Positions 2,748 to 19,917 of a stretch of DNA of 46,382 nt are shown here, piece after piece; position 1 is the stretch's first letter; each line of letters begins with the position of its first letter. A model generated the notes under the pieces. That model made no database searches and was not told the DNA's origin. It saw only the letters and a list, made by a program, of their open reading frames with translations. The position numbers and the translations under genes were made by a program. The stretch covers positions 1 through 46,382 of the forward strand of contig NZ_VHLG01000021.1 of NCBI RefSeq assembly GCF_006516955.1. The letters are read 5' to 3'. Source of the DNA: Martelella alba (lineage in GTDB: Bacteria; Pseudomonadota; Alphaproteobacteria; Rhizobiales; Rhizobiaceae).

Positions 2748-2767
2748 CCTATACCCGCGTATAGGTC
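2748..2767. promoter_or_regulatory. putative regulator box with inverted repeat (site a)
   Basis: CCTATAC and GTATAGG form a perfect 7-bp inverted repeat around CCGC at 2748-2765. Read forward, 2753-2767 gives ACCCGCGTATAGGTC, the best match to a box found before five other genes here. It lies upstream of the minus-strand AraC gene. Function as an operator is an inference from this recurrence. Confidence 0.45.
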
Positions 2768-2779
2768 TACGGGCGCCAC

Positions 2780-2807
2780 GGAGAAAAGCCGTGGTTCGCA
2801 CCACGGC
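2780..2807 (-). terminator. rho-independent terminator after the flavoprotein gene
   Basis: On the minus strand an 8-bp perfect stem (GCCGTGGT / ACCACGGC) with a four-base loop is followed by TTTTCTCC. It lies about 50 bp beyond the stop codon of the cyclic-nucleotide-binding flavoprotein gene and probably ends that transcript. Confidence 0.6.
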
Positions 2808-2853
2808 CAGCAAAGCGAGCACTGCAATGGAAAGGCCGAACCGGGACTGAAGC

Positions 2854-4503
2854 TCAGGCCTTGGCCAGATATTGATGAACCGAACTGACAACCACCGACC
2901 CCTCGCCAACGGCCGAGGCGACGCGCTTGATCGAGCCGCTTCTGACATCGCCGATGGCGAAAATACCCGAACGTGACGCCGCAAAGGGAAGTGCCGGCAG
3001 GCCGTCTGCCGGTGTCTCCCCAGTTTTAACGAAGCCACGCTCGTCGAGATCAATGCAGCCCTGAAGCCAGTCCGTATTCGGCCGGGCACCGATCATCACG
3101 AAGATATTGCCGGTTGACAGATGGATCTGACGGCGGCTCAGCCCGCCGCGCCAGCTCACGCCCTGAAGGACATCGCGGCCGCGCAGCGCTTCGATCTCGC
3201 TTTTCTCATAGGTCGAGATGCGCGGCGAGCTCTCAATACGCTGCACGAGATAGTCAGACATGGTACGCGACAGGCCACTACGCAGGAGCATATGGACATG
3301 CCTTGCCGTCGATGAAAGATAGATGGCCGCCTGCCCGGCAGAATTTCCGCCGCCCACGACGACGACGTCCTGTTCCCGGCAGATCTGCGCTTCCATGGCC
3401 GTGGCCGCATAGTGAATGCCCTGCCCTTCGAACCGGTCATAGTCCGGTACATCCAGCCTGCGATAGCGCGCGCCCGTCGCGATGACAACCGCGCGGGCCT
3501 GCACGGCCTGACCGTCCTCCAGCGTGAGGCGAAAAGGGCTCGCCTCGCAGTCAAGCGCGACGACGCTGCGTGATACGCAGAGCAGGGCGCCGAACTTCTG
3601 CGCTTGAATATGGGCGCGGCCTGCAAGTGCCATGCCGGAGACGCCGGTTGGAAAACCGAGATAATTCTCGATCTTTGACGACGTTCCCGCCTGCCCGCCC
3701 GGCGCCAGTGTCTCCAGAACCACGGTCCGCAAACCTTCTGACGTCGCATAGACGGCAGTCGCCAGGCCTGATGGCCCGGCGCCAACCACCGCGACATCAT
3801 AGACGGTCTCGACAGCCGGTGCCTCGGCAATGCCGAGCTGATCGGCCAGTGTCATGATATCCGGGCGGACCAGAACATTGCCGCCGGGCTCGACAATAGC
3901 CGGCAGTTGATCCTCATCCAGGCCAAGGGTCGCCATCAACGGCCTGGCTGCGGCGCCCGTCTGCGTGTCGATCACCTCGACCGGATAGGCATTGCGCGTC
4001 AGAAAACGCTGCATCTCAAGCAATTTTCCACTGTTTGACGGACCGAGCAGAACAACACCACCCCGTTTGTGGCGGATGAAGCCGACGCGACGGAGAATGA
4101 AGGCACGCATGATGATTTCGGCAATATCCGGCTCCCCGGCAAGGAAGGCGCGAAAATCCGCGTTTTTGATGCGTAGCACGCACGTCTTCTCAGCCGCCGC
4201 CGCGCTCAGCAGGATTTTGCGACCGTTAAAGAGGTTCTGTTCTCCGGTGAACTGCCCGCGCTGGTAGCTGTAAAGCAGGTCCGGCCCCTTGGTCGCGTCG
4301 TCATAGGTGATGTTGATCTGTCCCTCGAGAACGACAAAGAAGTCAATCGAGCGGTCGCCGCGTCTGAACAGCATCGTCTCGCTGTCGAACCGCTCCTCAC
4401 GGCCGTAATTGTAAAGCCGGTCGATCATCGCTTCCGGGAGCTTGGGAAAAGTCTGGCCTTCGCGGTTCCACGGATCGCTCAACTCTTCATTCGACATCAA
4501 CAT
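2854..4503 (-). CDS. cyclic nucleotide-binding / thioredoxin reductase-like flavoprotein
   Basis: This 549-residue fusion has a cyclic-nucleotide-binding (CRP-type) fold at about 25-140, a thioredoxin/glutaredoxin-like segment at about 148-225, and a thioredoxin-reductase-like FAD/NAD(P)H oxidoreductase at about 233-549. Clear sites are the FAD loop GAGPSG (241-246), the NAD(P)H loop GGGNSAG (384-390), and the distal FAD motif GIFAIGDV (513-520). The redox CxxC that thioredoxin reductases carry is absent; HYAATAMEA stands there (364-372). It therefore probably moves electrons from NAD(P)H to an unknown acceptor without a disulfide relay, perhaps gated by a bound nucleotide. AAGGA seven bases before the ATG at 4503 fixes the start over a 22-codon longer frame. 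It is the last gene of a minus-strand run with dps. Confidence 0.85.
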   Translation of the reverse strand: MLMSNEELSDPWNREGQTFPKLPEAMIDRLYNYGREERFDSETMLFRRGDRSIDFFVVLEGQINITYDDATKGPDLLYSYQRGQFTGEQNLFNGRKILLSAAAAEKTCVLRIKNADFRAFLAGEPDIAEIIMRAFILRRVGFIRHKRGGVVLLGPSNSGKLLEMQRFLTRNAYPVEVIDTQTGAAARPLMATLGLDEDQLPAIVEPGGNVLVRPDIMTLADQLGIAEAPAVETVYDVAVVGAGPSGLATAVYATSEGLRTVVLETLAPGGQAGTSSKIENYLGFPTGVSGMALAGRAHIQAQKFGALLCVSRSVVALDCEASPFRLTLEDGQAVQARAVVIATGARYRRLDVPDYDRFEGQGIHYAATAMEAQICREQDVVVVGGGNSAGQAAIYLSSTARHVHMLLRSGLSRTMSDYLVQRIESSPRISTYEKSEIEALRGRDVLQGVSWRGGLSRRQIHLSTGNIFVMIGARPNTDWLQGCIDLDERGFVKTGETPADGLPALPFAASRSGIFAIGDVRSGSIKRVASAVGEGSVVVSSVHQYLAKA

Positions 4504-4590
4504 CAAGACATCCTTTCCGCAAATCCCCGCCAGAGCAAAAAAGCCGGACAGATGCGGAGGGGCACGCATCCATCCGGCAATGAGGCCGTG

Positions 4591-5109
4591 TCACGCGTTG
4601 GTGGAACGCAGGATTTCGAACAGGAACCAAACACGTTTTTCGGTCTCGTCGAGCCAATTTTCCAGAAGGCTCGCCGTGGCGACATCACCATGTTCGTCGC
4701 AAACGCCATGAAGCGCGCGCATGCGGGCGGCCAGATCGGCGTTGTCAGAACGCAGCTCCGCCAGCATTTCATGCGGATGGACGAATTCGGCATCATTGTC
4801 GGCGATCCGCTGCTTTGCGGCGATATCGCCGATCGAGGTCAGCGTCAGGCCGCCAAGCTTGCGCACCCGCTCGGCAAGCGGATCGGTCATGGTCAGCAGT
4901 TCATCGGCGTGGTCATCGAGCATCAGATGCCAGTCGCGGAAACTGGCGCCGGACATGTGCCAGTGAAAATTCTTGGTTTTGAGAAACACGGCAAAAATAT
5001 CGGCCAGCAGCGTGTTTGCGCCGGCAGTGATATCCTTTGCAGCCTCGCCACCAAGCCCCGACGGCGTGTGAAGCGATGCGCTGCGGCGTGCGGCGGTATT
5101 GCTATCCAT
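4591..5109 (-). CDS. dps: Dps-family DNA-binding ferritin-like protein
   Basis: This 172-residue member of the Dps family uses hydrogen peroxide to oxidise Fe(II), stores the iron in a 12-subunit shell, and shields DNA. All ferroxidase ligands are present with the spacing of E. coli Dps: His49, His61 and Asp65 (FHWHMSGASFRDWHLMLDD), then Asp76 and Glu80. The N-terminal tail contains lysine and arginine but is short, so DNA binding is less certain than ferroxidase activity. AAGGAGACAGAAAG precedes the chosen ATG; an open frame extends 48 codons upstream into the preceding gene. It sits 22 bp after the DUF1275 gene and 87 bp before the flavoprotein gene, in line with a peroxide-defence operon. 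Confidence 0.93.
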   Translation of the reverse strand: MDSNTAARRSASLHTPSGLGGEAAKDITAGANTLLADIFAVFLKTKNFHWHMSGASFRDWHLMLDDHADELLTMTDPLAERVRKLGGLTLTSIGDIAAKQRIADNDAEFVHPHEMLAELRSDNADLAARMRALHGVCDEHGDVATASLLENWLDETEKRVWFLFEILRSTNA

Positions 5110-5131
5110 CTTTCTGTCTCCTTGTTGAGAT

Positions 5132-5908: not shown

Positions 5909-5992
5909 GGAATAACTCCGTCAGAAGCGGTTGGGGCGTTGGGCCCCTCTTCCATGACGGGAATGCCTCGCCATGGAAGAAGGTCTGCACGC

Positions 5993-6985: not shown

Positions 6986-7040
6986 CTGCGTCTCCTTTGA
7001 ATGGCGGCGGGCCCACCGGGGGTGGACTGACAGGTGGAAA

Positions 7041-7096
7041 GCTAGCCCGGAGCGCGAACTGGCGATTGTCAAAAAGGCGCGTGGTTTGGACAATCG
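7041..7096. promoter_or_regulatory. divergent promoter region with 8-bp inverted repeat
   Basis: CGATTGTC (7063-7070) and GACAATCG (7089-7096) form a perfect inverted repeat 18 bp apart between the divergent hydrolase and phosphotransferase genes. The left arm overlaps a TTGACA hexamer on the minus strand (7072-7067), with a poor -10 about 17-19 bp further on. It may be an operator; the regulator is unknown. Confidence 0.35.
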
Positions 7097-7182
7097 TAAT
7101 GTTTTGTGGCAATCGCCGAATTCTCGGGCTGAAGCGCTGATCGGGTCATATTGCAGCAATACTGATCTGCTTTAAGGTCGGC

Positions 7183-8070: not shown

Positions 8071-8123
8071 CGCCGGGCAGCCCGCAACCGCACCCGGCCA
8101 AGACCCATGTCCAGCGTGCCTAA

Positions 8124-8153
8124 ACCCACGTATAGGGCGCATCTTGCCGGAAA
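8124..8153 (+). promoter_or_regulatory. putative regulator box upstream of the kinase (site b)
   Basis: ACCCACGTATAGGGC at 8124-8138 is followed by TGCCGGAAA at 8145-8153 and a -10-like TGTAGT at 8157. The same arrangement recurs about 245 bp downstream (site c). It is inferred to be a regulator-binding promoter element. Confidence 0.4.
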
Positions 8154-8268
8154 ATCTGTAGTCTTGTCGCTGTTGCCCCGATCGTGCCGCCGACGGGGTG
8201 ATCGCGGGAAACGTTGCCCTGATCCGGGTTCCCCTCCCTCTGGATCAGGACGGATCCGCAATTTGCGC

Positions 8269-8307
8269 GAAGGCCGCCTTTCTTTTCCCCTCGGAAAGGC
8301 GGCCTTC
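8269..8307. terminator. strong hairpin without a T tract
   Basis: A perfect 14-bp stem (GAAGGCCGCCTTTC / GAAAGGCGGCCTTC) has an 11-base loop. No run of T follows on either strand, so it is not a standard intrinsic terminator. It may stabilise or attenuate a transcript starting at site b, or end the phosphotransferase mRNA. Confidence 0.4.
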
Positions 8308-8367
8308 CTGCACAAATGCAAAACGGCTGAGTGATACCCTTCAGCGCAGCGTGAGGCGTGTGACTAG

Positions 8368-8408
8368 ACCATTGTATAGGTCCGCCAGCCTGCCGGAAAC
8401 GATACGCT
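8368..8408 (+). promoter_or_regulatory. putative regulator box and promoter of the kinase operon (site c)
   Basis: ACCATTGTATAGGTC at 8368-8382 is followed by TGCCGGAAA (8391-8399) and a -10-like GATACG/TACGCT around 8401-8408, 25 bp before the kinase start codon. Placement of the box over the -35 position suggests an activator site. Confidence 0.45.
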
Positions 8409-8432
8409 TGAACCGGAAAGGCGAAATCATTG

Positions 8433-10016
8433 ATGATGCAGCGATTGGAGTGGACATTGGCACAGCAACAGGCAAGTCGCCACGCACGCCTGTTTGCCAC
8501 CTCAACGGTGCTGGTCGCAGCGGTAATTTTCACCGTCGACACCTTCACTGATATCGAGGGCGCGATCGCCGTTCTTTATGCCATTGCGCTTCTTCTCGCC
8601 TCCCAGGCCGTCAGCCGCACTGGCCTTATCCGCTTTGCTGTCATCTTTCTGGTTCTCTCGCTCGTCTCTTTCTTTCTCACCCATGCCAGCGATCCGAGCT
8701 TGCAGACATTTCTGCGCCTCGGGGTCGCATTGGTGGCCCTCGGGCTGACGACCACACTGCTGCTGCGCAATGACCGCGCCAGATCCGCACTGCTCGAAAC
8801 GAATGCCGCCCTCAGACTGAGCGAGGGGCGCTATCGTTCCATCTTCGAACGCACCCGCGTGGCGCTGTGGGAACGCGACTATTCGAAACTCCGCAGCTAT
8901 CTGATGGACCTGAAAGCCCGAGGTTTCGGCGATGTCCGCACCGTTGCCAGACAGGATCCCCAATTCGTCGATCGCTGCATCGGCATGATCAAGATCGTCG
9001 CCGCCAATGAAGCGGCGATCGACCTTCTTGGCTCGTCGGCCACCCGTGCCTCAAATGCCACCATGCGGGATTTCATTCCGCTCAACAGCGAAACCTTTGT
9101 GTCGCTGCTGCAGGCAATCATGAATGGCGCCAGCTATTTCGAAGACAATGCAGAAGTCCTGAATGATGCCGGGGAGCCGAAGATCGTTCTTCTGAGCATC
9201 AGCTTTCCCGAAGAACAGGTCACCTATGACCGGGTAATCGTCAGCATGGTCGATATCACCCAGCGCGAACAGGCCAGACACGCGCTGGCCAAGGCCCAGG
9301 AAGAACTGGCCCGTGCCTCGCGTGCGGCAACAGTCGGCGCGCTCTCCGCCTCGCTCGCCCATGAACTCAACCAGCCGCTCGGCGCCATTGCCGTCAATTC
9401 CCAGACCTTGCTGCGCTGGCTCGATCGCGACCCGCCGGACATGGAAGCGGCCCGACGCTCCGCCGAGCGGATTGCACGGGACAGCCAGCGCACAAGCAAT
9501 ATTCTCAGGAACACGCGGTCGATGCTGTTTTCGCAACCCGGCGAAACCCAGGCTCTCGACCTGACCAGGCTTATCGATGATACGCTGACATTGATGAAAT
9601 ATGATCTCCAGCGGGAAGCGATCACGGTGGAATTCACACATGATACGGCCATACCGGTCATCAGCAGCGGCCGCCTGGAAATCCAGCAGGTGCTGATCAA
9701 TCTGATTTCCAATGCCATCCAGGCCATCAAGGCTGCATCACCGGATCGCCGGGCTCTGGCGATATCGCTCCATGCAGATGCCGGGCGCGACACCATCTCG
9801 ATTACGCTGCACGATACAGGGCACGGACTGAGCGCAGACGCGCTACAGAACCTGTTTACGCCTTTCTTCACGACCAGACAGGATGGCATGGGGATAGGTC
9901 TTTCGATCTGCCGGAGCACGATCGAAGCAAGGGGGGGCACCATCACCGGACACAATCATCCGGACGGCGGCGCTCTGTTCGAAATCACGTTGCCGAAGGA
10001 GACAGCCAGTGCGTGA
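8433..10016 (+). CDS. membrane PAS sensor histidine kinase
   Basis: This is a 527-residue sensor kinase of the inner membrane. Four hydrophobic helices span about residues 20-112, followed by a PAS domain (about 125-280; SEGRYRSIFERTRVALWERD), a dimerisation helix with the phosphorylated histidine in LAHELNQPLGAI (His310), and a catalytic ATPase domain with the N box (LINLISNAIQA) and G boxes (DTGHG, GMGIGLSICRS). Kinases with HELNQPL H-boxes normally pair with FixJ/NarL-type regulators, and one such gene overlaps its 3' end by 8 bp. TTG, ATG and ATG occur in tandem at 8430; the ATG at 8433 is chosen after GGAAAGG at 8415-8421. The stimulus is unknown; the neighbourhood suggests redox or oxidative stress. 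Confidence 0.9.
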   Translation: MMQRLEWTLAQQQASRHARLFATSTVLVAAVIFTVDTFTDIEGAIAVLYAIALLLASQAVSRTGLIRFAVIFLVLSLVSFFLTHASDPSLQTFLRLGVALVALGLTTTLLLRNDRARSALLETNAALRLSEGRYRSIFERTRVALWERDYSKLRSYLMDLKARGFGDVRTVARQDPQFVDRCIGMIKIVAANEAAIDLLGSSATRASNATMRDFIPLNSETFVSLLQAIMNGASYFEDNAEVLNDAGEPKIVLLSISFPEEQVTYDRVIVSMVDITQREQARHALAKAQEELARASRAATVGALSASLAHELNQPLGAIAVNSQTLLRWLDRDPPDMEAARRSAERIARDSQRTSNILRNTRSMLFSQPGETQALDLTRLIDDTLTLMKYDLQREAITVEFTHDTAIPVISSGRLEIQQVLINLISNAIQAIKAASPDRRALAISLHADAGRDTISITLHDTGHGLSADALQNLFTPFFTTRQDGMGIGLSICRSTIEARGGTITGHNHPDGGALFEITLPKETASA

Positions 10017-10689
10017 ACGAAAGAATGCGCAGCCGAAAACCGGGGGCCCCGTCGTCTATATTGTCGATGATGACCTTTCCATGCGTGAATCACTGGTCGA
10101 CCTTTTCCAATCCGTCCAGATTGCCGCGCAGGCCTTTGCCAGTCCGGATGCCTTTCTCGCCGAGGCTGATCTGTCACAGCCGGGCTGTATCGTTCTTGAT
10201 GTCAGGCTCCCCGGCGTCAGCGGTCTGGACTTCCAGTCGCAGCTGGCGCAGGAAGGCAGTACTCATCCGATTATTTTCATGACGGGCTATGGCGATATTT
10301 CCATGAGTGTGCGGGCGATGAAGGCCGGCGCGGTCGACTTTCTGGCAAAACCGTTCCGTGATCAGGATATTCTGGATGCTGCCCTGGCCGCGGTAGAACG
10401 CGACGCTGCCAGCCGCCGCGAACGGGACCGCCATCAGGCGGTCAACAGCCGTTTCGAAACGCTGACACCACGCGAACGCGAGGTCATGGAACGGGTCGTA
10501 CAGGGCCTGATGAACAAGCAGATCGCCTTTGAACTTGGAATCAGTGAAATCACGGTCAAGCTGCACCGCGGCAATGTCATGCGGAAAATGCAGGTCAAAT
10601 CCGTCGCCGAGCTGGTCCGCAACGCCGAACAGACAAATCACGGGGTCTATCCCCAAACGTCAAAACCAACAGCAATACGCGCCGTATGA
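10009..10689 (+). CDS. FixJ-type two-component response regulator
   Basis: This 226-residue regulator has an N-terminal receiver with acidic residues Asp20-22, the phosphorylated Asp64 (IVLDVRLPG), Thr92 and Lys114, and a C-terminal LuxR-type helix-turn-helix (LTPREREVMERVVQGLMNKQIAFELGISEITVKLHRGNVMRKM). The GTG start overlaps the end of the kinase gene, which indicates translational coupling and a cognate pair. The C-terminal 15 residues beyond the HTH look unstructured. It is a close paralogue of the regulator at 16863-17501: the HTH recognition region (EIxVKLHRGNVMRKM) is nearly identical, so the two may read the same DNA box. Confidence 0.92.
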   Translation: MRERKNAQPKTGGPVVYIVDDDLSMRESLVDLFQSVQIAAQAFASPDAFLAEADLSQPGCIVLDVRLPGVSGLDFQSQLAQEGSTHPIIFMTGYGDISMSVRAMKAGAVDFLAKPFRDQDILDAALAAVERDAASRRERDRHQAVNSRFETLTPREREVMERVVQGLMNKQIAFELGISEITVKLHRGNVMRKMQVKSVAELVRNAEQTNHGVYPQTSKPTAIRAV

Positions 10690-10722: not shown

Positions 10723-11091
10723 GTGACCCAGTCTGCGCTCATCGCAATCGTCGATGATGATCTGGCCATCCGGGAAGCTCTGGATGATCTGGTGAAATCA
10801 CTCGGCTATGAAAGCTGCCTCTTCGCATCGGCAGAAGCCTTTCTCGGCTTCCAGCCACGCGCTGCGGTCGATTGCATGGTGGTTGACGTCAAGATGCCCG
10901 GTCTGAGCGGGCTTGAACTGCAAAGCCGCCTCAATCAGGAGCGCGATCGTCCGCCGATGATCTTCATGACCTCCTACCACGATGATCGCACGCGAACCGC
11001 AGCGCTCGAGGGCGGCGCGCTCGCCTTTCTTGGCAAGCCCGTCGATCTGGCGGTTCTGATCAACTGTATTGAAAAGGCTATCGAAGCCTAG
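10723..11091 (+). CDS. single-domain receiver protein
   Basis: This 122-residue protein consists only of a response-regulator receiver domain: Asp11-13, phosphorylated Asp55 (VVDVKMPG), Thr83 and Lys105 are all present. It has no output domain, so it probably acts by protein contact or as a phosphate sink for the upstream kinase. The GTG start lies 33 bp after the FixJ-type gene and all three genes run in one direction, so they likely form an operon. The receiver resembles those of the FixJ group (FASAEAF, GLSGLELQSRL) more than CheY. Confidence 0.88.
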   Translation: MTQSALIAIVDDDLAIREALDDLVKSLGYESCLFASAEAFLGFQPRAAVDCMVVDVKMPGLSGLELQSRLNQERDRPPMIFMTSYHDDRTRTAALEGGALAFLGKPVDLAVLINCIEKAIEA

Positions 11092-11215
11092 AGCACGGCT
11101 GACCGGATTTTAGCCCGTGAGCCGCCAATGGCGTGATCACGGCCTTTGGCGCGCGCGCGTTCATCCCCTTTTTCGATGTCTTCCCGGCGGTGGCTTTCAC
11201 CTCAGCGCATCCCAA

Positions 11216-11249
11216 ACCAAAGCATAGGTCTGGATGCTTCAGGTATGAT
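11216..11249 (+). promoter_or_regulatory. putative regulator box and promoter (site f)
   Basis: ACCAAAGCATAGGTC at 11216-11230 is followed 13 bp later by TATGAT (11244-11249), a good -10. It precedes the SRPBCC-like/quinone oxidoreductase/antiporter operon by about 140-170 bp. Its last GTC and its ATAGG match the box seen at the other sites; it has GCATAG instead of GTATAG. Confidence 0.4.
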
Positions 11250-11389
11250 TGAGACCACTCCTTTCCGGTGTCAGTCTCAGCACAGCCCGAACAACAGAGC
11301 GGGCGCCACCAATCAAAGGCAAGCGAGATGAGATGTCGCCGGAACCAACCGGCATGCCGCTCGGCCATCCCCCAGGAAAGGACAAAACC

Positions 11390-11941
11390 ATGAAAGCTCT
11401 CACCGACAAGCAGCTGTCATTTTCAGCCTATTCGCACGACCTCGACATTCCCCTCGATCAGATCGATATCGCCGACTGGCTCTTCAACCTGCCGGAAGCG
11501 GAATATCAGCGCTGCTGCCCGCCCGATCACATCTCCTGCGGCGCAACCTTCACCGATGACGGGCGCCGGATGTCGATCAATGTCGAGAAAATCGGAACCG
11601 GACTGGTGATCCAGCATTATGTTGCCGAAGAGGCCACACCCTCCTATTGCCGGATGAATTCCATCTCCGACGTGTTCACCCCCACCGGCGAACGCACGCA
11701 GGTCAATGTGGTTTGGGAACTGATCGCCGAGGCCATTGACGGCAACCGCACGCGCTACACCAATCGCGTCACCAGCCATCCGACCGATGTTTTCATGACC
11801 TTCATCGAAGCCCATGGCCAGACCTTCGAAGAGGCGGCGGCTGCCCGTCAGGCCGCCAGCGGCGACCATAACCATCGCGAAACACCGCTCTTTGCCGAAA
11901 GCATCGCCCGCAAGGCCCGGGCAAAGGCATCAGCAAAGTGA
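11390..11941 (+). CDS. SRPBCC-like hypothetical protein
   Basis: This is a 183-residue cytoplasmic protein. The mixed strand and helix pattern, with a central run (TGERTQVNVVWELIAEAIDGNRTRYTNRV) and a C-terminal helix (FMTFIEAHGQTFEEAAAARQ), fits a START/SRPBCC ligand-binding fold, although I assign this from general shape rather than a diagnostic motif. No catalytic residues are evident. AGGAAAGGACAAAACC precedes the ATG at 11390; the open frame extends 47 codons upstream, but that part is not protein-like. The TGA overlaps the GTG start of the quinone oxidoreductase gene, so the two are translated together and the protein may act with that enzyme. Confidence 0.6.
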   Translation: MKALTDKQLSFSAYSHDLDIPLDQIDIADWLFNLPEAEYQRCCPPDHISCGATFTDDGRRMSINVEKIGTGLVIQHYVAEEATPSYCRMNSISDVFTPTGERTQVNVVWELIAEAIDGNRTRYTNRVTSHPTDVFMTFIEAHGQTFEEAAAARQAASGDHNHRETPLFAESIARKARAKASAK

Positions 11942-12939
11942 AGGCGATCACGTTCGATCAGTTTGGCGGGGCGGATGTTCTCCGCCTTGCTGACGTCCCC
12001 GAACCGGAAATCCGTCCGGATGACCTGCTGGTGAAGGTGAAAGCGCTTGGCGTCAACCGGGCCGATCTGCTTCAGCGTCAGGGCTATTACGGCGGACAGA
12101 CCTATGGCGAAAGCCCGCTGATGGGGCTGGAAGTTGCAGGAGAGGTTTTGATGACCGGAAATAACGTGACGGATATGATGCCGGGCGCCCGGATCATGGC
12201 GATCGTCGGCGGCGGTGCCTATGCCCAGTATGCACGGGTCGATCGTGGCATGGCGGTCGCGATCCCTGACGGTTTCGGCTTCATTGAAGCCGCAGCCGTG
12301 ATGGAATCCTTCGTCACCGCCTGGGAGGCGCTCGTCCATCTGGGCGAACTTAGCCCCGGCTGTTCGGTCCTCATTCATGCCGCCGCCGGCGGTATTGGCT
12401 CGGCGGCCGTCCAGATCGCCCATGCGCTCGGCACGCGGGTGTTCGCTACGGCGTCGCAGGACCGGCGACAGCAGGTGATGGCACTCGGCGCAGAGGCGGT
12501 CTTCGATTACCGGACCGAGGATTTCGTGGCAGGCCTTCATGCGCTGACGGGTGGTCTGGGCGTCGATGTGATCATCGATTTCGTCGGTGGCGACTATCTC
12601 AGTCGCAATCTTCGCAGTCTTCGCCCCGGCGGACGGCTGGTTCAGGTCGGGCTGCTCAGTGGTGAGGACACGGCCGAAATTCCGCTGGCCCTGCTGCTCC
12701 ACAATCACCTGCGCATTATCGGCACGGTGATGAAATCGAGAAGCATGGAGGAAAAGCGCGCAATGGTACGCCGCTTTGCCGAAAACGGCCTGCCGATGTT
12801 TGCCGATGGGCGTCTCAAACCCGTCATCTGGCAGAGCTTCCCGCTCGATCAGGCCGCCAGAGCCCATCAGGCGATGGAGACCGGACACGGTTTCGGCAAG
12901 ATCGTCCTGACGATCGACCATGAGGCCTGCGGCCCCTGA
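11938..12939 (+). CDS. NAD(P)H:quinone oxidoreductase (zinc-independent MDR family)
   Basis: This is a 333-residue medium-chain reductase of the quinone oxidoreductase/PIG3 type. An N-terminal GroES-like domain carries VNRADLLQRQGYY and the PLMGLEVAGEV motif, and a Rossmann domain carries the nucleotide loop HAAAGGIGSAAVQIA. The zinc-binding cysteines of alcohol dehydrogenases are absent, as expected. The enzyme would reduce quinones or other electrophilic carbonyls with NADPH in the cytoplasm, a role in redox defence. The GTG start overlaps the preceding stop codon. The antiporter gene follows closely; its long open frame even overlaps this gene's end. Confidence 0.9.
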   Translation: MKAITFDQFGGADVLRLADVPEPEIRPDDLLVKVKALGVNRADLLQRQGYYGGQTYGESPLMGLEVAGEVLMTGNNVTDMMPGARIMAIVGGGAYAQYARVDRGMAVAIPDGFGFIEAAAVMESFVTAWEALVHLGELSPGCSVLIHAAAGGIGSAAVQIAHALGTRVFATASQDRRQQVMALGAEAVFDYRTEDFVAGLHALTGGLGVDVIIDFVGGDYLSRNLRSLRPGGRLVQVGLLSGEDTAEIPLALLLHNHLRIIGTVMKSRSMEEKRAMVRRFAENGLPMFADGRLKPVIWQSFPLDQAARAHQAMETGHGFGKIVLTIDHEACGP

Positions 12940-12985
12940 AAGGCCGCCCGCCCCTTCCTCCTCCGTCGACAGCAAGGCCCGTTTC

Positions 12986-14521
12986 ATGTCCATCGAACAG
13001 GATTACGAGGTTCTGGTTGTCCTGTTGATGGCCGTCCTCGCTCTGGTGCTGGTTGCCCGCTATTTCCGCCTGCCTGCAGCCGCCGCGCTGATCCTCGGCG
13101 GCCTGGCGCTGGCCTTCATTCCGACGCTGCCCGTCGTGACCTTTGATCCCGATCTGGTGATGGTGGTTTTTCTGCCGCCGCTCCTTCTCAGCAGCGCCTA
13201 TCAGACGGTCTGGCTGGATTTCAAACAGTATTTCGCCGCCATTACCTCGCTTGCCGTCGGCGCCGTCGTCTTCACAACGCTGTCGACGGCCTGCGTCGTT
13301 CACTGGATAAGGCCGGATCTGCCCTGGTCCACGGCCTTCACCCTGGGTGCCGTCGTTTCGCCGCCCGATGCCGTCGCCGTCAAGGCCGTGCTGGATCGGC
13401 TCAATCTTCCCAACCGGGTCTCAACCGTCCTGACCGGCGAGAGCCTGATCAATGATGCCAGCGGTCTGGTCCTGTTTCACTTCGCCCTCACCTCAGCCAT
13501 CAGTGGAACCTTCAGCCTGCCCGAGGCGATTGGCTCCTTTCTCCATATCGCGATTGGCGGCATCGCCTTCGGCTTTGGTTTCGGCTGGATCGCGCTGAAC
13601 CTGCTCCGGCGTTTCGGCAATAGCGAGCTTATTGTCACCGGCACACTGCTTCTGGCGACCGTCTCCTACATGCTGTCGGACCGGCTGGGTTTTTCGGGCG
13701 TTCTGGCAACGGTCACCACCGGATTGATGCTGGGCTGGCAGCAGCACGAAATCTATTCGGCTCCAACCCGCATGCGCGCCGAGGCCTTCTGGCGGGTGCT
13801 CGTCTTTCTGCTGGAATCGCTGCTCTTCGTGCTGATCGGTCTGGCACTTCGGCAGGCGCTGACCGGTTTTGCCAGCGTCGCTGACGGGCTTCACCGCCTG
13901 GCCCTGCCGGTCGCCGGCGTGGTGCTGAGCGTTATAGGGGCCCGTTTTGTCTGGCTTGTCGGGTCAGACCTCTGCCTTTCCGTTCTCCAGCGGTTCGGCG
14001 TTTCTTCGAAAGAGCGCCCTTCGCTGCCGATGACCATCATTGTCAGCTGGGCCGGCATGCGCGGCGTGGTGACGCTCACCGCAGCGCTGTCCCTGCCGCT
14101 GACCTTTCCCGGCCGAAATCTCGTTCTGGCATCGGCTTTCGGCGTGATCCTGGTGACGGTGCTGGTGCAGGCAACAACACTGCCGCTGCTGATCAGCCTG
14201 TTTCCTTCCATCTCCCGGCAAAGCAAATCCGAACTCGGCAGAGAAGAAGCGCTGGTGCGCCGGAAGATTGCCGCGAAACAGCGCAAGGCCTTCGCCGCTT
14301 ATGCCGCAAAGCTGTCTGCAGCCAGAACCGCCGCTCCCGGCGACGGACAAGTCCAGGCCCGGCTTGCGGCGATCAGCGCGGGGCGCAGGGAAATGCTGAG
14401 ACTGTATCGCCGTGGTCAGATCTCCGACAGTATCATGGAGCATATTGAAGAGGATCTCGATCTGCAGGAAATCGCCGTCCGGCGGCAGCTCGACGATGCC
14501 GCATCGAAGGGTGGCCCCTGA
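12986..14521 (+). CDS. CPA1-family Na+/H+ antiporter
   Basis: This 511-residue inner-membrane antiporter has about 12 hydrophobic helices in the first 410 residues and a charged cytoplasmic tail of about 100 residues. Family signatures are FLPPLLLSSAYQT, VVSPPDAVAVKAVL, the ion-binding GESLINDASGLVLF, and WAGMRGVVTLTAALSLP. It would exchange cytoplasmic Na+ or K+ for protons and so control pH or salt. An in-frame ATG at 12920 overlapping the quinone oxidoreductase gene would add 22 polar residues; the ATG at 12986 begins the membrane-like sequence and is preferred, although its ribosome binding site is weak. It is the last gene of a three-gene operon that ends in a good terminator. Confidence 0.9.
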   Translation: MSIEQDYEVLVVLLMAVLALVLVARYFRLPAAAALILGGLALAFIPTLPVVTFDPDLVMVVFLPPLLLSSAYQTVWLDFKQYFAAITSLAVGAVVFTTLSTACVVHWIRPDLPWSTAFTLGAVVSPPDAVAVKAVLDRLNLPNRVSTVLTGESLINDASGLVLFHFALTSAISGTFSLPEAIGSFLHIAIGGIAFGFGFGWIALNLLRRFGNSELIVTGTLLLATVSYMLSDRLGFSGVLATVTTGLMLGWQQHEIYSAPTRMRAEAFWRVLVFLLESLLFVLIGLALRQALTGFASVADGLHRLALPVAGVVLSVIGARFVWLVGSDLCLSVLQRFGVSSKERPSLPMTIIVSWAGMRGVVTLTAALSLPLTFPGRNLVLASAFGVILVTVLVQATTLPLLISLFPSISRQSKSELGREEALVRRKIAAKQRKAFAAYAAKLSAARTAAPGDGQVQARLAAISAGRREMLRLYRRGQISDSIMEHIEEDLDLQEIAVRRQLDDAASKGGP

Positions 14522-14608: not shown

Positions 14609-14630
14609 TCCCGTTCCAGCCGGGAAGCGC

Positions 14631-15680
14631 CTATGCTGATTGCGGAAAATGCTCAGCAAGCGTGCTGATCGTGAATTCGCGATTGGGCGCGCGCCGCACG
14701 TCCTGATCAGCAAAGGCCGCGGCCACGGGATTGATCATGATCTCGGAGACGTCGAGCGCCTGCGCCAGGCGGGCAATGCCGTCAGCAACGCGATCCGGTG
14801 AGCCGATGATCCACGAGCGCTTGAACATGCGCACCAGTTCTGAATAGCGGTCCGGGAATGCGCGCCGATCGGCATCTTCCGCCAGCATTTGCGGCTGAAC
14901 CGGCTCTCCGGATCGGAATGCGGACATGAAAAAGAGCTGCGGCCTTGCCAGACGCTCAGCCTCCGCGTCACTGCTGCCGACCACCACGATCACGGAAACA
15001 AGGACCTTCGGCGCCGCCAGATAGGGACTCGGCCTGAAGCGTTCCCGATAGAGCCCGATCGCCTCTTTGGCGCCTTCCGCGCGGATATGATAGCCGAAGG
15101 CGTAGGGCAATCCCAGTTCTGCGGCCACGGCGGCCGAATAGGATGATGTTCCCAGGATCCAGACATCCGCAGCGCTGCTGGCCGAGACGACAGCTTTGAA
15201 GGACAGTTCACGGCCGCCCTCCATCACCTTCAGACCGTCCGGCCTGTTCATTGCGATCAGGCTGGCAAGATCGCCGAGATAGGCCTCTTCGGATTTCATT
15301 TCAGTGCCACCGCGCAACAGCGACCCTGTCGCCCAGTCCGTGCCGGTTGACCGTCCGATGCCGAGATCGACCCGGCCGGGAAAGCAGGCTTCGACGAGCC
15401 CCATCTGTTCGGCAACCAGAAAGGGCGGATAATGCGCCAGCAATACGCAGCCTCCGATCCGGATCCGCTGCGTCGATGCCCCGACAACCGGCGCGAAGCT
15501 TGCCGTCTGGCTGGCAGCAACCGCAGCGACATTGTGGTGCTCGGCCAGCCAGTAGCGATGATAGCCGAGGGCGTCGCCGAGCCTGGCCAGTTCGAGCATG
15601 GAACTGAAGCAGTCGGAGGCGGACTGGTTGGAACGGATCGGGCCAATGTCGAGAATGGAAAGTGTGAGTGTCTTGTTCAT
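14631..15680 (-). CDS. luciferase-like (LLM class) flavin-dependent monooxygenase 1
   Basis: This 349-residue TIM-barrel flavoenzyme belongs to the bacterial luciferase-like family. It would use reduced FMN or F420-type cofactor and oxygen on an unknown organic substrate. Seen motifs are the N-terminal strand LTLSILDIGPI, YHRYWLAEHHNVAAVAASQT (the conserved AEHH), GGCVLLAHYPPFLVAEQ, and FPGRVDLGIGRSTGTD. It starts three bases after the stop of a homologous gene, so the two are probably translated together and may form a heterodimer, as luciferase subunits do, or act on related substrates. Confidence 0.88.
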   Translation of the reverse strand: MNKTLTLSILDIGPIRSNQSASDCFSSMLELARLGDALGYHRYWLAEHHNVAAVAASQTASFAPVVGASTQRIRIGGCVLLAHYPPFLVAEQMGLVEACFPGRVDLGIGRSTGTDWATGSLLRGGTEMKSEEAYLGDLASLIAMNRPDGLKVMEGGRELSFKAVVSASSAADVWILGTSSYSAAVAAELGLPYAFGYHIRAEGAKEAIGLYRERFRPSPYLAAPKVLVSVIVVVGSSDAEAERLARPQLFFMSAFRSGEPVQPQMLAEDADRRAFPDRYSELVRMFKRSWIIGSPDRVADGIARLAQALDVSEIMINPVAAAFADQDVRRAPNREFTISTLAEHFPQSA

Positions 15681-15683
15681 GGT

Positions 15684-16664
15684 CTACGCCACAAGCCGAT
15701 CGGCAATCTGGTGAAAGGCGCGGACCTTGTCCTCGATATCAAAGGTCATCATGGTGATCATGACCTCATCGGCGTCATAGGCCGCCGCGCGCGCACGGAT
15801 CCCGGCAGCAACGTCATCGATCAGCCCTGTCACCTCGCGATTGGCGATCATGCCGAGATAGGCGGCCTGTCGATCCGAAAACGCAAGCGCCCTCAGGCCA
15901 TCGGGGGCCGGAACCACCTTCGGATAGCTACCGCTGTCGCGCATGAGCCTAAAGTAATCCGACGCCTTCTTCATGTCGGCAAGCTTTTCTGTCGTATCGG
16001 CGGTGACACAATTCAGCGCGATGAGCACGCGCGGCTCGGGAAATTCCGGCGAGGGGCGGAAAGTCTCGCGATAGCGTCGGACCGCCGCTTCTGTCGCTGC
16101 CGGATTGATGAACAGCGCGATCGCCAACCCCATTCCTCTTTCGGCGGCCAGCCGGCCGCTGTCAGGATGGCCGCCGGCGGAGAGAAGCCAGAGAGGCGGC
16201 GCGCCGGTGACATCCGGCATGGCGGTGGTTTGGGGATAGCCGCCGTGGAAGAACCGCTCCAGCTGCGCGACCTGATCTGGAAAATCGATCCCCTTTGGCG
16301 GATTGAGGAAGAGCGTTGCCTGAGGATCACCGCCGCTCGCCCGGCCGACACCGCAATCGACCCGCCCGGGAAACAGGGCTTCAAGAACGCGGAAGTTTTC
16401 AGCAACCTTGTAGGCGCTGTAATTGGGCAGCATCACACCGCCCGAGCCAAGACGGATCCGATCCGTCTTTGCGCCGACCGCCGCGAGCAGAACCTCAGGC
16501 GATGACCCCTGAAGGATGCTCATATTGTGGTGTTCGGAAAGCCAGAACCGCTCATAGCCGAGATAATCCGCTTCGCGGGCGAGCCAGACGGTATTCTGGA
16601 TGGCATCTGCAGCCGTACTGTTTTCTGACAGGGCTGATTGTTCAAGTATCGAGATTTTCACCAC
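15684..16664 (-). CDS. luciferase-like (LLM class) flavin-dependent monooxygenase 2
   Basis: This 326-residue enzyme is a paralogue of its downstream neighbour. The same family hallmarks are present: ISILEQSAL, YERFWLSEHHNMSILQGSSP, GSGGVMLPNYSAYKVAENF and FPGRVDCGVGRASGGD. It is the first gene of the pair. A copy of the shared regulator box lies 139-153 bp upstream with a -10-like CTAAAC about 22 bp after it, which suggests control by a FixJ-type regulator. Substrate unknown; no flavin reductase gene is adjacent, so reduced flavin would come from elsewhere. Confidence 0.88.
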   Translation of the reverse strand: MVKISILEQSALSENSTAADAIQNTVWLAREADYLGYERFWLSEHHNMSILQGSSPEVLLAAVGAKTDRIRLGSGGVMLPNYSAYKVAENFRVLEALFPGRVDCGVGRASGGDPQATLFLNPPKGIDFPDQVAQLERFFHGGYPQTTAMPDVTGAPPLWLLSAGGHPDSGRLAAERGMGLAIALFINPAATEAAVRRYRETFRPSPEFPEPRVLIALNCVTADTTEKLADMKKASDYFRLMRDSGSYPKVVPAPDGLRALAFSDRQAAYLGMIANREVTGLIDDVAAGIRARAAAYDADEVMITMMTFDIEDKVRAFHQIADRLVA

Positions 16665-16777
16665 ATATCCTTTCAGGAAGGTGGCGACTGCCGGTCTGCA
16701 ACCGGCAGAACGTGGCCGGTTTCAGCAGGGGATGGTCGCCAGGACAGCCCGGATGGGCCGGGAAACACTGTGGTGAA

Positions 16778-16817
16778 GTTTAGGCGCGCCAGCGGCCCGT
16801 CATAACTATACGAGGGT
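16778..16817 (-). promoter_or_regulatory. putative regulator box and promoter of the monooxygenase pair (site d)
   Basis: On the minus strand 16817-16803 reads ACCCTCGTATAGTTA, and CTAAAC (16783-16778) stands about 22 bp after the GTATAG. The first 12 bases fit the shared box well. Confidence 0.45.
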
Positions 16818-16862
16818 TTAGCCGATCTGCACCAATGGTTGCTCCAGGCGTGTACAGCCTGC

Positions 16863-17501
16863 CTATTTGCCGAGCGCCAGACCTTCGGCGATCCGCACCA
16901 GATCCGCCAGCGAGCGGACATCCATCTTGCGCATGACATTGCCGCGATGCAGCTTGACCGTGACTTCGGAAATCCCGAGTTCATAGGCGATCTGCTTGTT
17001 CATCAGGCCTTGCACCACCAGCCGCATGACCTCCTGCTCCCGTGGCGTCAGATGGCGATAGCGTTCGTGATGGGCCTCGCTTTGTGCGACCGCCGCACGC
17101 AGTTCGGCATCCCGGGCAAATGCGACACGGACCGCCTCCAGCAGATCCTTGTCGCTGAAGGGCTTGGTCAGAAAATCCGACGCGCCGGCCTTCATCGCCT
17201 GAACGGTCATCGGGATATCGCCGAAGCCGGTCATGAAGATGATCGGCATTTTCCGGCCCCGTTCGTTCAGATGCGCCTGCAGCTCAAGTCCGTTCAATCC
17301 CGGCAGGCGGATATCGAGCAGAATGCAGCCTGCCTCAGGCGTCGCTGCGGCAAGAAAGGATGCAGTGTTTGCAAATGCAACAGCCGGCATATCCAGCGCG
17401 GCAAAGAAATCGACCAGCGACTCGCGCAGCGACGCATCGTCATCAATGATATGGACGACCGGTTCCGGGGGGCGTTTGCTGGACTGAGAAGAACGAACCA
17501 T
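16863..17501 (-). CDS. FixJ-type two-component response regulator (second copy)
   Basis: This is a 212-residue regulator with a receiver domain (Asp20-22, phosphorylated Asp63 in LLDIRLPG, Thr91, Lys113) and a LuxR-type HTH (LTPREQEVMRLVVQGLMNKQIAYELGISEVTVKLHRGNVMRKM). No kinase is adjacent. Likely partners are the membrane kinase at 8433 or the AAA-type kinase at 21323, which carries the same class of H-box. The ATG at 17501 is chosen because the 47 upstream codons of the open frame are not protein-like and GGAAAG lies before it. The gene starts 53 bp after the molybdopterin oxidoreductase gene on the same strand, so it may be co-transcribed with it. Confidence 0.9.
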   Translation of the reverse strand: MVRSSQSSKRPPEPVVHIIDDDASLRESLVDFFAALDMPAVAFANTASFLAAATPEAGCILLDIRLPGLNGLELQAHLNERGRKMPIIFMTGFGDIPMTVQAMKAGASDFLTKPFSDKDLLEAVRVAFARDAELRAAVAQSEAHHERYRHLTPREQEVMRLVVQGLMNKQIAYELGISEVTVKLHRGNVMRKMDVRSLADLVRIAEGLALGK

Positions 17502-17553
17502 CACGCCGGACTTTCCAACGTCCTGCCATATGCCGTCAATGCCATCGGCACGA

Positions 17554-19848
17554 TTACACGGTTTCTGAGCGAATGATTTGAACAGGCACGCCCTTATAGG
17601 CCGGTGTGCCTGACCGGCGGTCAAAATGGCTGAGCGGCACAATCGCGTTCATTTCGGGATAATAGCCGCCAACCGAACCCTGCGGCAGATCATAGGCAAC
17701 GGCGGTATAGCCGCGCACCGCCCGCGCTGGCCCGCCATCAGCAATGGCAACGACGTCGATCAGATCGCCATCGGCAAGACCGCGCGCCTTCAGATCGGCC
17801 TCACTGATGAAGATGACATCACGCCGGCCAAAGACACCGCGATAGCGATCATCCATCCCATAGACCGTCGTATTGTACTGATCGTGGCTGCGCATCGTCG
17901 CCAGAACCAGCGTTTCGGGATCATTCAGACGCGGATCCTCATCGAGACCGGAGGCGACAAGGAAATTGGCCTTGCCGGTCTCGGTGCGCCACTCACGCCT
18001 AGAGGCCGGAACATGGAGGCGGAAGCCGCCCGGCACGCGGATCTTGCGGTTGAAATCCCGAAAATCAGGAAAGACGATCTCGATCTTGTCGCGAATGCGG
18101 TCGTAATCGGCAACCAGCCCGGCCCAGTCGATCCCGTATTTCCCCCCCAACGTCGCCGCGGCGATGCCGGAAAGGATGGCCGGTTCGGATTTCAGCCGCG
18201 GGCCAGGCGGATTGAGGAAACCGCGCGAGGCGTGGACCATCGACATGGAATCTTCCACGGTCACCGCCTGCGGCCCGCTGGCCTGGGTATCGAGATCGGT
18301 GCGGCCGAGACATGGCAGGACGATATTGGTCTTGGCCGTCAGCAGATGCGAGCGATTGAGTTTGGTGGCGATGTGGACCGCAAGATCGAGCCTGCGCATG
18401 CCCGCAAAGGTCAAAGCGGGATCGGACATGGCCACGGCAAGATTGCCGCCGAGACAGACCAGCGCTTTTGAGCGGCCATCGACAATCGCCTCAACCGCCT
18501 CAATGGCATTATGCCCCTTCTCCGCCGTCGGCCGAAAACCAAAGGCACGCTCCATGCCATCGAGCAGGCTGCCATTGGGAATTTCGGTGATGCCGACCGT
18601 GCGATCACCCTGCACATTGGAGTGACCGCGCACCGGGCAAATTCCAGCGCCGGGCCGGCCGATATTGCCGCGCAGCATCAGCAGATTGGCCGCCTGCTGA
18701 ACGTTGCAGGTGCCATGCGCGTGCTGGGTGAGGCCCATGCCATAGCACAGGATCACGTTTTTGGCGTTGAGATAGACATCAACCGCGCAACTGATCGCGT
18801 GATGGGTGAGGCCGGAATAGCTGAGAATATCCTCCCAGCTGGTCCGCCCGATATCATCGCGCAGCACATCAATGCCGGTCGTGTGGCCAGCGATGAAATC
18901 ATGGTCGAGAACGCCCGGCCCGCCCTTGGCGCAATCCGCATCATCGCGCTCGAAGATCAGCTTCATCATGCCCTTGAGCGCGGCGAGATCGCCACCCGTT
19001 TTCACCTGATGATAGGAGGACGCGATTGCGGTCGAGGAGAAGGTCGCCATCTCGACCGGGTTCTGCGGCGCGGCAAATTTCTCCAGCGCCCTCTCCCGGA
19101 ACGGGTTGAAGACCACGATCGGCACGCCCCGTCGGGAGGCCTCATGCAGCGTCGTCATCATGCGGGGATGATTGGTACCGGGATTATGGCCGAAGCTGAA
19201 GATCGCATCCGCCTGGTCGAAATCCTCAAGCGTCACGGTTCCCTTGCCAACACCGATGGATTGCGGCAGGCCGACGCTTGTCGCCTCATGGCACATATTG
19301 GAACAGTCGGGGAAATTATTGGTGCCGAAGGCACGCACGAAGGTCTGAAACAGAAAGGCCGCCTCGTTGGACGCGCGCCCGGATGTGTAGAACTCCGCCT
19401 GATGCGGGCTTTCCAGCGCATTCAGTTCCTTGCCAATCAGGGCGAAGGCATCGTCCCATTCGATCGGCTCATAGCGATCGCTTTCGGCATCGTAAATCAT
19501 CGGATGCGTCAGGCGGCCCTGATTTTCGAGCTCATGGTCGCTCCATTCCCAGAGCTCTGCGACCTTGTGGGTGGCGAAGAAATCCGCCGTTACACGCTTT
19601 GCCGTCGATTCCCAGGTAATCGCCTTGGCGCCATTTTCGCAGAACTCGAAGGACGAGGTGTGTTTCGGGTCCGGCCAGGCGCATCCCGGACAATCAAAAC
19701 CTTCCGGCTGGTTCGCCTTCAGAAGGGTTGCGGTTCCCTGCACTTCCACCTGCTGGCGTGCAAGCGTCGCGGCAACCGCCTTCAGCGCCCCCCAGCCCCC
19801 TGCGGGTTCGTGATAGGCCTTGATACCGTCCGGGCGCTTCTTCGTCAT
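17554..19848 (-). CDS. FdhF/YdeP-family molybdopterin oxidoreductase
   Basis: This is a 764-residue relative of the formate dehydrogenase alpha subunit, of the YdeP type. Near the N-terminus, GFDCPGCAWPDP with Cys53, Cys56 and Cys70 suggests an iron-sulfur site. The molybdenum-ligand position is a cysteine (Cys186 in SNMCHEATS) rather than selenocysteine. Later segments such as FGHNPGTNHPRMM and MRSHDQYNTTVYGMDDRYRG bind the bis-molybdopterin guanine dinucleotide cofactor. No Tat signal is seen, so it is cytoplasmic. Proteins of this group are linked to acid or stress resistance, and the true substrate is not established. GGAGAG before the ATG at 19848 sets the start. A shared regulator box lies about 55 bp upstream; a FixJ-type gene follows. 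Confidence 0.88.
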   Translation of the reverse strand: MTKKRPDGIKAYHEPAGGWGALKAVAATLARQQVEVQGTATLLKANQPEGFDCPGCAWPDPKHTSSFEFCENGAKAITWESTAKRVTADFFATHKVAELWEWSDHELENQGRLTHPMIYDAESDRYEPIEWDDAFALIGKELNALESPHQAEFYTSGRASNEAAFLFQTFVRAFGTNNFPDCSNMCHEATSVGLPQSIGVGKGTVTLEDFDQADAIFSFGHNPGTNHPRMMTTLHEASRRGVPIVVFNPFRERALEKFAAPQNPVEMATFSSTAIASSYHQVKTGGDLAALKGMMKLIFERDDADCAKGGPGVLDHDFIAGHTTGIDVLRDDIGRTSWEDILSYSGLTHHAISCAVDVYLNAKNVILCYGMGLTQHAHGTCNVQQAANLLMLRGNIGRPGAGICPVRGHSNVQGDRTVGITEIPNGSLLDGMERAFGFRPTAEKGHNAIEAVEAIVDGRSKALVCLGGNLAVAMSDPALTFAGMRRLDLAVHIATKLNRSHLLTAKTNIVLPCLGRTDLDTQASGPQAVTVEDSMSMVHASRGFLNPPGPRLKSEPAILSGIAAATLGGKYGIDWAGLVADYDRIRDKIEIVFPDFRDFNRKIRVPGGFRLHVPASRREWRTETGKANFLVASGLDEDPRLNDPETLVLATMRSHDQYNTTVYGMDDRYRGVFGRRDVIFISEADLKARGLADGDLIDVVAIADGGPARAVRGYTAVAYDLPQGSVGGYYPEMNAIVPLSHFDRRSGTPAYKGVPVQIIRSETV

Positions 19849-19876
19849 GATACTCTCCACACTTGGGTGAAGCCCG

Positions 19877-19917
19877 AGCCTAGCAGGCGACGGCACATGG
19901 CAAAGCTATACAAAGAT
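19877..19917 (-). promoter_or_regulatory. putative regulator box and promoter of the molybdopterin enzyme (site e)
   Basis: On the minus strand 19917-19903 reads ATCTTTGTATAGCTT and is followed by TAGGCT (19882-19877) about 22 bp after GTATAG. This is the weakest copy of the shared box, but spacing and position match the others. Confidence 0.35.

Follow-up and report, generated by a model that had tools for sequence, protein, structure and literature searches.

A palindromic promoter box linked to a StyR-like two-component system and a candidate small RNA in Martelella alba and other Rhizobiaceae

The locus and its palindromic box

The window analysed here, by which we mean the whole stretch of 46,382 nucleotides (nt) of Martelella alba contig NZ_VHLG01000021.1 (assembly GCF_006516955.1), carries a block of stress and redox genes in which six copies of a short palindromic box are found alongside the genes of a StyR-like two-component system. 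On the forward strand, the system comprises a PAS histidine kinase (8430-10016, with Pfam domains PAS_4, HisKA and HATPase_c and a start that may instead be the ATG at 8433 or 8436), the StyR-like response regulator RR1 (10009-10689, REC and GerE domains) and a single-domain receiver protein (10723-11091, Response_reg). These genes are followed on the same strand by an operon (11249-14521) that encodes a 230-amino-acid protein, a zinc-type quinone/alcohol reductase and a member of the Na+/H+ exchanger family, as assigned by Pfam; the 230-amino-acid protein had no Pfam match, and its designation as SRPBCC is the label of the original prediction. On the minus strand lie two luciferase-like monooxygenase genes (14631-16664, Bac_luciferase) and a second StyR-like regulator assigned by Pfam, RR2 (16863-17507), located downstream of a gene for a molybdopterin oxidoreductase (17554-19848, Molybdopterin and Molydop_binding domains) whose annotated relatives are FdhF/YdeP. 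The left side of the block contains an AraC-type gene (from 2030, minus strand) and a gene coding for a cyclic-nucleotide-binding (CNMP) domain fused to a thioredoxin-reductase-like enzyme (2854-4569, minus strand). A large AAA-ATPase/histidine-kinase fusion protein (21323-24880) adjoins the block and is preceded by none of the six boxes.

The original prediction had described a 15-mer, ACCNNNGTATAGGTC, shared by six promoters, and all six sites are present. Alignment of these sites with their left flanks revealed that the 15-mer, although real, is only the right-hand part of a 16-bp inverted repeat, CTAWAC-N4-GTATAG (CTAWACCNNNGTATAG), whose palindromic character had been overlooked. Box 1 (2749-2764, plus strand) is a near-perfect inverted repeat, CTATACCCGCGTATAG, flanked on one side by the 3' end of the CNMP/thioredoxin-reductase gene and on the other by the AraC-type gene, upstream of which it lies. 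Boxes 2 (8120-8135) and 3 (8364-8379) lie upstream of the kinase on the plus strand, box 4 (11212-11227, plus strand) precedes the operon at 11249-14521, and boxes 5 (16806-16821) and 6 (19906-19921), both on the minus strand, precede the luciferase-like pair and the YdeP-RR2 genes, respectively. Allowing up to three mismatches, CTAWACCNNNGTATAG matched the window 16 times against 2.96 expected, counting both strands and hence palindromic sites twice, and the highest count among 100 shuffled sequences was 7. Moreover, the three exact matches in the 4.99-Mb genome all fall inside the window.

A -10-like hexamer had been proposed to follow the GTATAG core by 17-22 bp at five of the six sites; what was found instead is a fixed distance of 23 nt at four of them. 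The elements in register are TAGTCT (8159-8164, plus strand) behind box 2, TACGCT (8403-8408) behind box 3, TAAACT behind box 5 and TAGGCT behind box 6. When box and -10 element were combined into one pattern with up to three mismatches, 14 places were retrieved from the genome, of which the best three were box 2 (without any mismatch), box 5 and box 3, while box 6, with two mismatches, was tied with one place on another contig. Boxes 3, 5 and 6 are thus predicted promoters of the kinase-regulator-receiver operon, the luciferase-like pair and YdeP-RR2.

The register was also recovered in foreign DNA. The foreign set comprised 79 loci around RR1 homologues (from the best 80 of 577), reduced to 78 by leaving out the Martelella locus, and the box matrix held no information on the -10 element. 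Among 44 dereplicated sites that scored at least 12 and were flanked by a gene start on a single side, 22 have a TANNNT beginning exactly 24 nt beyond the 16-mer, compared with at most three at any other offset and none of the 44 at offset 24 on the opposite face. For the 38 ambiguous sites (76 faces), offset 24 was again the most frequent, with 11 occurrences against seven at the next highest (offset 46), and the 24 sites in coding sequence (48 faces) yielded three. If the first T of the -10 element is taken as -12, the dyad would be centred at about -43.5, which is the position of a class II activator.

Conservation of the box and its neighbours in relatives

According to the gene caller, the 78 foreign loci hold 365,340 noncoding bases (with the initial 150 nt of each gene counted among them) and 1,161,861 coding bases. 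At a score of 14, the six-site matrix gave 82 noncoding and 24 coding hits, a density ratio of 10.9, and at a score of 9 it gave 150 against 89 (ratio 1.69). None of 40 column-permuted palindromic matrices reached these values at score 9, as the highest noncoding count was 145, accompanied by 535 coding hits, and the best ratio was 78:52. When all 6-mer half-sites with spacers of 0-12 were enumerated in the same loci, TCATAC-N4-GTATGA ranked fourth, ACCTAT-N2-ATAGGT fifth and CATACC-N2-GGTATG twelfth, behind TCG-rich palindromes. Noncoding boxes scoring at least 12 were present in 47 of the 78 loci, and several genera have boxes close to their regulator homologues. Within 500 nt upstream of a homologue, a box was found for the kinase in 30 of the 74 foreign loci having one, for YdeP in 8 of 18, for the receiver gene in 13 of 62 and for an abhydrolase gene in 2 of 13.

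In a genome of the same genus, taken to be Martelella sp. HB161492, whose RR1 is 95% identical, counterparts of boxes 1, 2, 3, 5 and 6 are present with one, zero, one, zero and two palindrome mismatches, respectively, and box 4 carries one further change inside the 16-mer, within a stretch that is 90% identical. A palindromic box also recurs in genome G006 (locus L045) between CNMP/thioredoxin-reductase and AraC-type genes whose proteins are 59% and 74% identical to those of the window; this box has no -10 element in register towards the AraC-type gene. In named relatives, boxes occur near YdeP and other genes, and a longer 19-base pattern was found at 22 places outside the source genome, three of them adjacent to YdeP, three adjacent to a response-regulator-type gene and one at the AraC/reductase pair. 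As many hits inside genes as upstream of them, and a lack of conservation in relatives, are outcomes that would speak against the predicted regulon; both were looked for and neither was observed.

The genes that follow the box were tallied by Pfam name for 74 in-register sites scoring at least 11 in all collected loci, HB161492 included. These sites precede a kinase (17), YdeP (15), a receiver or response regulator (7), a formate/nitrite transporter (6), an HlyD-type efflux adaptor (5), an exported-looking protein of unidentified function (3) and luciferase-like genes (2, one of them in HB161492), the remainder being single cases, and eight of the 74 had no gene within 260 nt. Among the eight listed of the 15 sites preceding YdeP, an RNA was flagged in between in two. 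An in-register box before a luciferase homologue was also found on Agrobacterium tumefaciens plasmid pAt-B441 (L140), where the kinase-regulator operon is surrounded by genes for oxalate decarboxylase, a formate/nitrite transporter, FdhD and MoaA, with YdeP adjoining (21065-37542) and HdeD in the same neighbourhood. This gene company suggests a connection to formate/oxalate metabolism, and from it and the redox neighbours in relatives one could guess that the signal is acid or electrophile stress. On plasmid p4 of Pararhizobium qamdonense (L025, 3809-10773), the genes beside YdeP include an annotated GTPase-associated system protein, GASH.

The candidate small RNA behind box 2

Box 2 was originally listed as a promoter of the kinase, together with five other boxes assigned to the genes behind them. 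Between this box, which forms a perfect composite promoter, and the kinase's own promoter at box 3 no convincing gene was found; the reading of box 2 as a second kinase promoter was replaced, and the box appears to switch on a previously unrecognised small RNA rather than a protein gene. The candidate RNA would extend from about 8171 to about 8315 on the plus strand, both ends being predicted, and would fold into stem-loops whose loops are C-rich and anti-Shine-Dalgarno-like, with a strong hairpin on the 3' side. The fold of 8171-8330 has a free energy of -76.4 kcal/mol (z -5.1 against 200 shuffles). Compared with HB161492, positions 8165-8315 show only four substitutions plus a single 1-nt gap, the latter incompatible with an intact reading frame, and the next 48 columns show 15 substitutions and one gap.

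In eight further loci (L062, L063, L064, L066, L068, L069, L070 and L079), an in-register box stands ahead of an RNA about 110-150 nt long, whose stem-loops carry C-rich loops such as CCUCCCCUCC, CCCCUC and CCUCCC. Together with L067 they provided nine training copies, in most of which a T-rich run follows the final hairpin; since these copies were found via their boxes, the presence of a box in them is no evidence. For the structure drawn on the 3' cores of these copies, base pairing holds in 90.2% of cells and double changes occur in 16, a value reached by none of 500 shuffles, with slid controls far lower; the sequences tested are those on which the structure had been drawn. Pairs with double changes (6; 124 of 500 shuffles) and pair types (12; 474 of 500) were not above shuffles, and the covariation is no more than suggestive. 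A covariance model, R1, was built from the nine cores without the window, HB161492 or any promoter sequence, and its sole hit in the window is 8220-8314 (27.5 bits, E 7.7e-4).

The association between RNA and box was assessed on held-out copies. Under strict filters, R1 returned 17 matches in 14 of 394 family genomes (E 1e-4), from which one identical to training locus L062 (L157) was left out and another (L169) was recognised by Rfam as true ar14 (95.5 and 120.7 bits for tandem copies at 1159-1283 and 1461-1584) and has no box. All 15 remaining matches, from 12 genomes, have a box within 200 nt upstream scoring at least 8.8, and 14 of these score at least 11.4. The predicted distance from transcription start to core was 37-53 nt in 14 and 132 nt in one, and TA stood exactly at offset 24 in 13 (TANNNT in nine). 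By comparison, of 1920 random 200-nt windows drawn from the same neighbourhoods, real boxes included, 75 reached a score of 8.8 and 44 a score of 11. Among other loci, R1 matched four more held-out copies with above 45 bits, and in two of them, L140 (box score 14.4) and L142 (7.5), the box is in register.

Besides, 17 plasmid records are similar to the L063 RNA, and all eight that were examined, among them Rhizobium etli CFN42 p42f and Sinorhizobium medicae WSM419 pSMED02, match R1 with at least 62 bits; as the L063 query contained the box, these copies are not fully independent. The best box was followed by an in-register -10 element in six of the eight (scores 6.7-16.1), one strong box was out of register and one copy (L196) had none. 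The gene tables of the plasmids hold no RNA genes at all, so that the lack of an entry for these RNAs carries no information, and BLASTN with the RNA of the window found no match among plasmids. Overall, a box accompanies 24 of 27 held-out copies other than ar14, not dereplicated, and three of the 12 copies from outside the 394-genome set lack it. Matches in L071 and L075 (28 bits; box of 16.2 in L075, none above 6.6 in L071) and in L101, L129 and L141 (19.6-24 bits) were not counted as members. R1 also scored 24-29 bits downstream of the response regulator in thirteen Bradyrhizobium loci (L083-L089, L091, L092, L096, L099, L102 and L113), where CCUCCUCCC-like stretches occur; having no box upstream, these matches were likewise not counted, and possibly represent another anti-Shine-Dalgarno-type RNA near these regulators.

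The RNA could be an ar14 (NfeR1) RNA that has diverged from the rest of this known family. As in ar14/NfeR1 and in sX13, it is a short stem-loop RNA with C-rich loops, and the L063 copy is weakly similar to both (28.9 bits to ar14 and 30.8 bits to sX13, below the gathering thresholds of 58.8 and 50). However, true ar14 was readily recognised in L169, the sole boxless genome match, and none of the 16 others reached gathering. Rfam gave no match at gathering in the window or in seven loci with the RNA, neither the ar14 model (RF02344) nor any other Rfam family reached gathering in eight plasmid regions, and weak hits to mir-3158 and BjrC80 (22.8 bits) were below gathering and discarded. In addition, NfeR1 has an LsrB/NtrC-type promoter on which activation comes from LsrB at -72 to -57, not from this box (PMC10746234). 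We regard membership in ar14 as unlikely.

The structure at 8171-8315 could also be a mere leader or attenuator in the 5' part of the kinase mRNA, given its position ahead of the kinase in the same orientation and the absence of a U-run terminator from the Martelella copy. However, the kinase has an in-register box promoter of its own downstream of the RNA, most training copies end in the T-rich run mentioned above, and in relatives the RNA precedes YdeP or an aldehyde dehydrogenase gene, or has no kinase homologue within about 10 kb. An independent small RNA is the likelier explanation, and a simple leader seems rather improbable.

The predicted regulators and their proposed regulon

Among solved structures, RR1 is closest to StyR (1yio, E 5.1e-55), followed by FixJ (E 2.9e-43). 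RR1 and RR2 are 57% identical, and their recognition helices differ by a single I/V exchange, in agreement with the near identity noted originally. Regulators of the FixJ/StyR type abound in rhizobia and agrobacteria, with 485 plasmid records matching RR1 at E 1e-40, and to our knowledge few of them have known operators. EvgA of Escherichia coli, a regulator of the NarL/FixJ type, reportedly controls a ydeP gene; the regulator subfamily and the box are others here, and functional equivalence is not implied. The response regulator GacA switches on the small RNA genes rsmY and rsmZ, from which the RNA described here differs in its C-rich loops.

The closest parallel is with StyR and TodT, which are said to read ATAAACN4GTTTAT, the recognition residues named for StyR being K175, V176 and H179 (PMC5874301). 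RR1 and RR2 share the REC plus GerE (LuxR-type) architecture (Pfam), and both operators are inverted repeats with an N4 spacer and a common AC-N4-GT core. However, the box does not correspond to the StyR/TodT operator in its outer half-site, which is CTAWAC instead of ATAAAC, and the two regulators keep K175 and have L in place of V176 and G in place of H179; these substitutions are in line with the altered outer half-site. The high-affinity site of StyR is located some 40 bp ahead of the start (PMC2442086). The regulated functions differ as well, being styrene/toluene catabolism there and stress/redox genes plus an RNA here. For FixL/FixJ, which belongs to the same response-regulator family and is the second-best solved relative of RR1, the site TAAGTAATTTCCCTTA and the target fixK are described (PMC4999443), and by eye neither the box nor its targets resemble them. 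As judged from these comparisons, the system probably works like StyR/TodT with altered specificity, and its layout would be autoregulatory, with box 3 before the kinase-RR1-receiver genes and box 6 before YdeP-RR2.

Gene neighbourhoods and co-occurrence also link the RNA to these regulators. An RR1/RR2 homologue lies within about 10 kb in nine of 16 RNA neighbourhoods, one being the training duplicate, and is lacking around the ar14 copy and six others. A StyR-like response regulator (E 1e-50) is encoded in all 13 genomes with box and RNA, training duplicate included, and not in the genome with ar14 only. In an even sample of the family, it was found in 18 of 111 genomes (17 of 110 without the shared genome G111, and with the window's genome included). 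Across an order-wide sample of 397 genomes, R1 matched only in two family members already seen, a weak absence since the stricter filters used also missed the RNA of the window.

In the mechanism that we propose, the kinase at 8430, RR1 at 10009, the receiver at 10723 and RR2 at 16863 would form one StyR-like system whose operator is the box. A phosphorylated regulator dimer would bind the inverted repeat CTAWAC-N4-GTATAG, with the dyad 31.5 bp ahead of the T that opens the -10 element and abutting the -35 region, and could recruit RNA polymerase as a class II activator. Its predicted targets are its own kinase-regulator operon, YdeP-RR2, the luciferase-like pair and the small RNA gene at about 8171-8315. 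The C-rich loops of the RNA, if it is expressed, could pair with Shine-Dalgarno sequences and silence mRNAs, adding a post-transcriptional arm.

Several observations weigh against this interpretation. Boxes 1 and 4 of the window have no -10 element in register on either face, and box 4, with two mismatches, is the weakest site; in the foreign set, a box lies within 500 nt upstream of homologues of the AraC-type gene at 2030 in just 2 of 23 loci. No noncoding box scoring at least 12 was found in 31 of the 78 loci, and TCATAC-N4-GTATGA, mostly from Bradyrhizobium, has an in-register -10 element in one of 14 copies on either face, so that the mode of action at these sites may differ. The palindrome ranked first by the enumeration was another one, TCGTCG-N-CGACGA (15 distinct; 30 noncoding against 18 coding occurrences in L062-L139, hence denser in noncoding DNA), which was set aside, without a test, as TCG-rich low-complexity sequence. 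Raw counts are also unfavourable: the degenerate box with up to two mismatches occurs at 54 places in the genome against 134 for the reversed control, the composite pattern at 14 against 28, and the 19-base pattern in 22 of 394 family genomes against 42. Genome-wide pattern counting was dropped as proof of the box, the reversed pattern being commoner; the signal is carried by position, not by number.

As for the RNA, the R1 score of the Martelella copy is modest (27.5 bits), the genome-scale search with its stricter filters missed it, and its 3' hairpin has no U-run, with neither a terminator nor a sigma-70 promoter called there. RNA copies at L065 (6937-7037, 47 bits), L074 (7974-8076, 65 bits) and R. 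brockwellii L196 (6000-6094) have no box within 700 nt, suggesting that the RNA can come under other control. For the co-occurrence with StyR-like regulators, Fisher's p of 1e-9 takes no account of the relatedness of the genomes, and fewer candidates per genome were scored in the family sample. Least certain are the membership of boxes 1 (AraC) and 4 (SRPBCC operon) and the termination of the Martelella RNA.

It is also conceivable that the box is read not by RR1/RR2 but by another LuxR/NarL-type or unrelated regulator travelling with these genes. A gene with a LuxR-type C-terminal domain adjoins the RNA gene directly on R. etli CFN42 p42f and R. bangladeshense p1, also a point against our interpretation, and lies about 6 kb from it on R. 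leguminosarum pR132502; moreover, no RR1/RR2 homologue is found within about 10 kb in 6 of 15 neighbourhoods of RNAs other than ar14. On the other hand, the box precedes the kinase-regulator operon itself in 30 of 74 loci, its spacing equals that of the StyR/TodT site, every genome with box and RNA has a StyR-like regulator, and an RR1 homologue with 67% identity is also encoded on R. etli p42f. A different reader of the box appears improbable to us. Chance similarity among AT-rich promoter DNA, to which the raw counts below the reversed control might point, can practically be dismissed, the exact -10 register speaking strongly against it together with the noncoding enrichment, the conservation and the held-out RNA copies.

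The palindrome, the register, the conservation, the structure and family of the RNA and its co-occurrence with the regulator can all be read from the DNA, and on this basis we consider it highly likely that the box is the operator of the StyR-like system of the window, with the RNA among its targets. The FixJ-type regulators first named as candidates, more precisely StyR-like ones, are the best candidates by spacing, nearby boxes, register and RNA co-occurrence, and the box is very probably the docking site of these neighbouring regulators. The proposed single regulon of stress and redox genes is supported and extended by the RNA, although the AraC and SRPBCC-operon sites are less certain members. 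It had been called undescribed, and no paper naming the box, the regulon or the RNA under such a regulator was found in the open-access literature as covered by the titles and beginnings of abstracts among the matches listed; the claim holds to that extent, as subscription journals lie largely outside this coverage.

Taken together, these results probably reflect a regulon spread across the Rhizobiaceae, in which a StyR-like subfamily with altered specificity controls its own operon, YdeP, a formate/nitrite transporter, efflux genes and anti-Shine-Dalgarno-type RNAs outside the Rfam models. If so, its operator, promoter geometry and target list are readable from sequence, and the two-component system would include translational silencing as an arm of its own, with promoter and RNA conserved together in several genera. 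The linked RNA would then offer a concrete alphaproteobacterial case of two-component control of translation via an anti-Shine-Dalgarno-type RNA.

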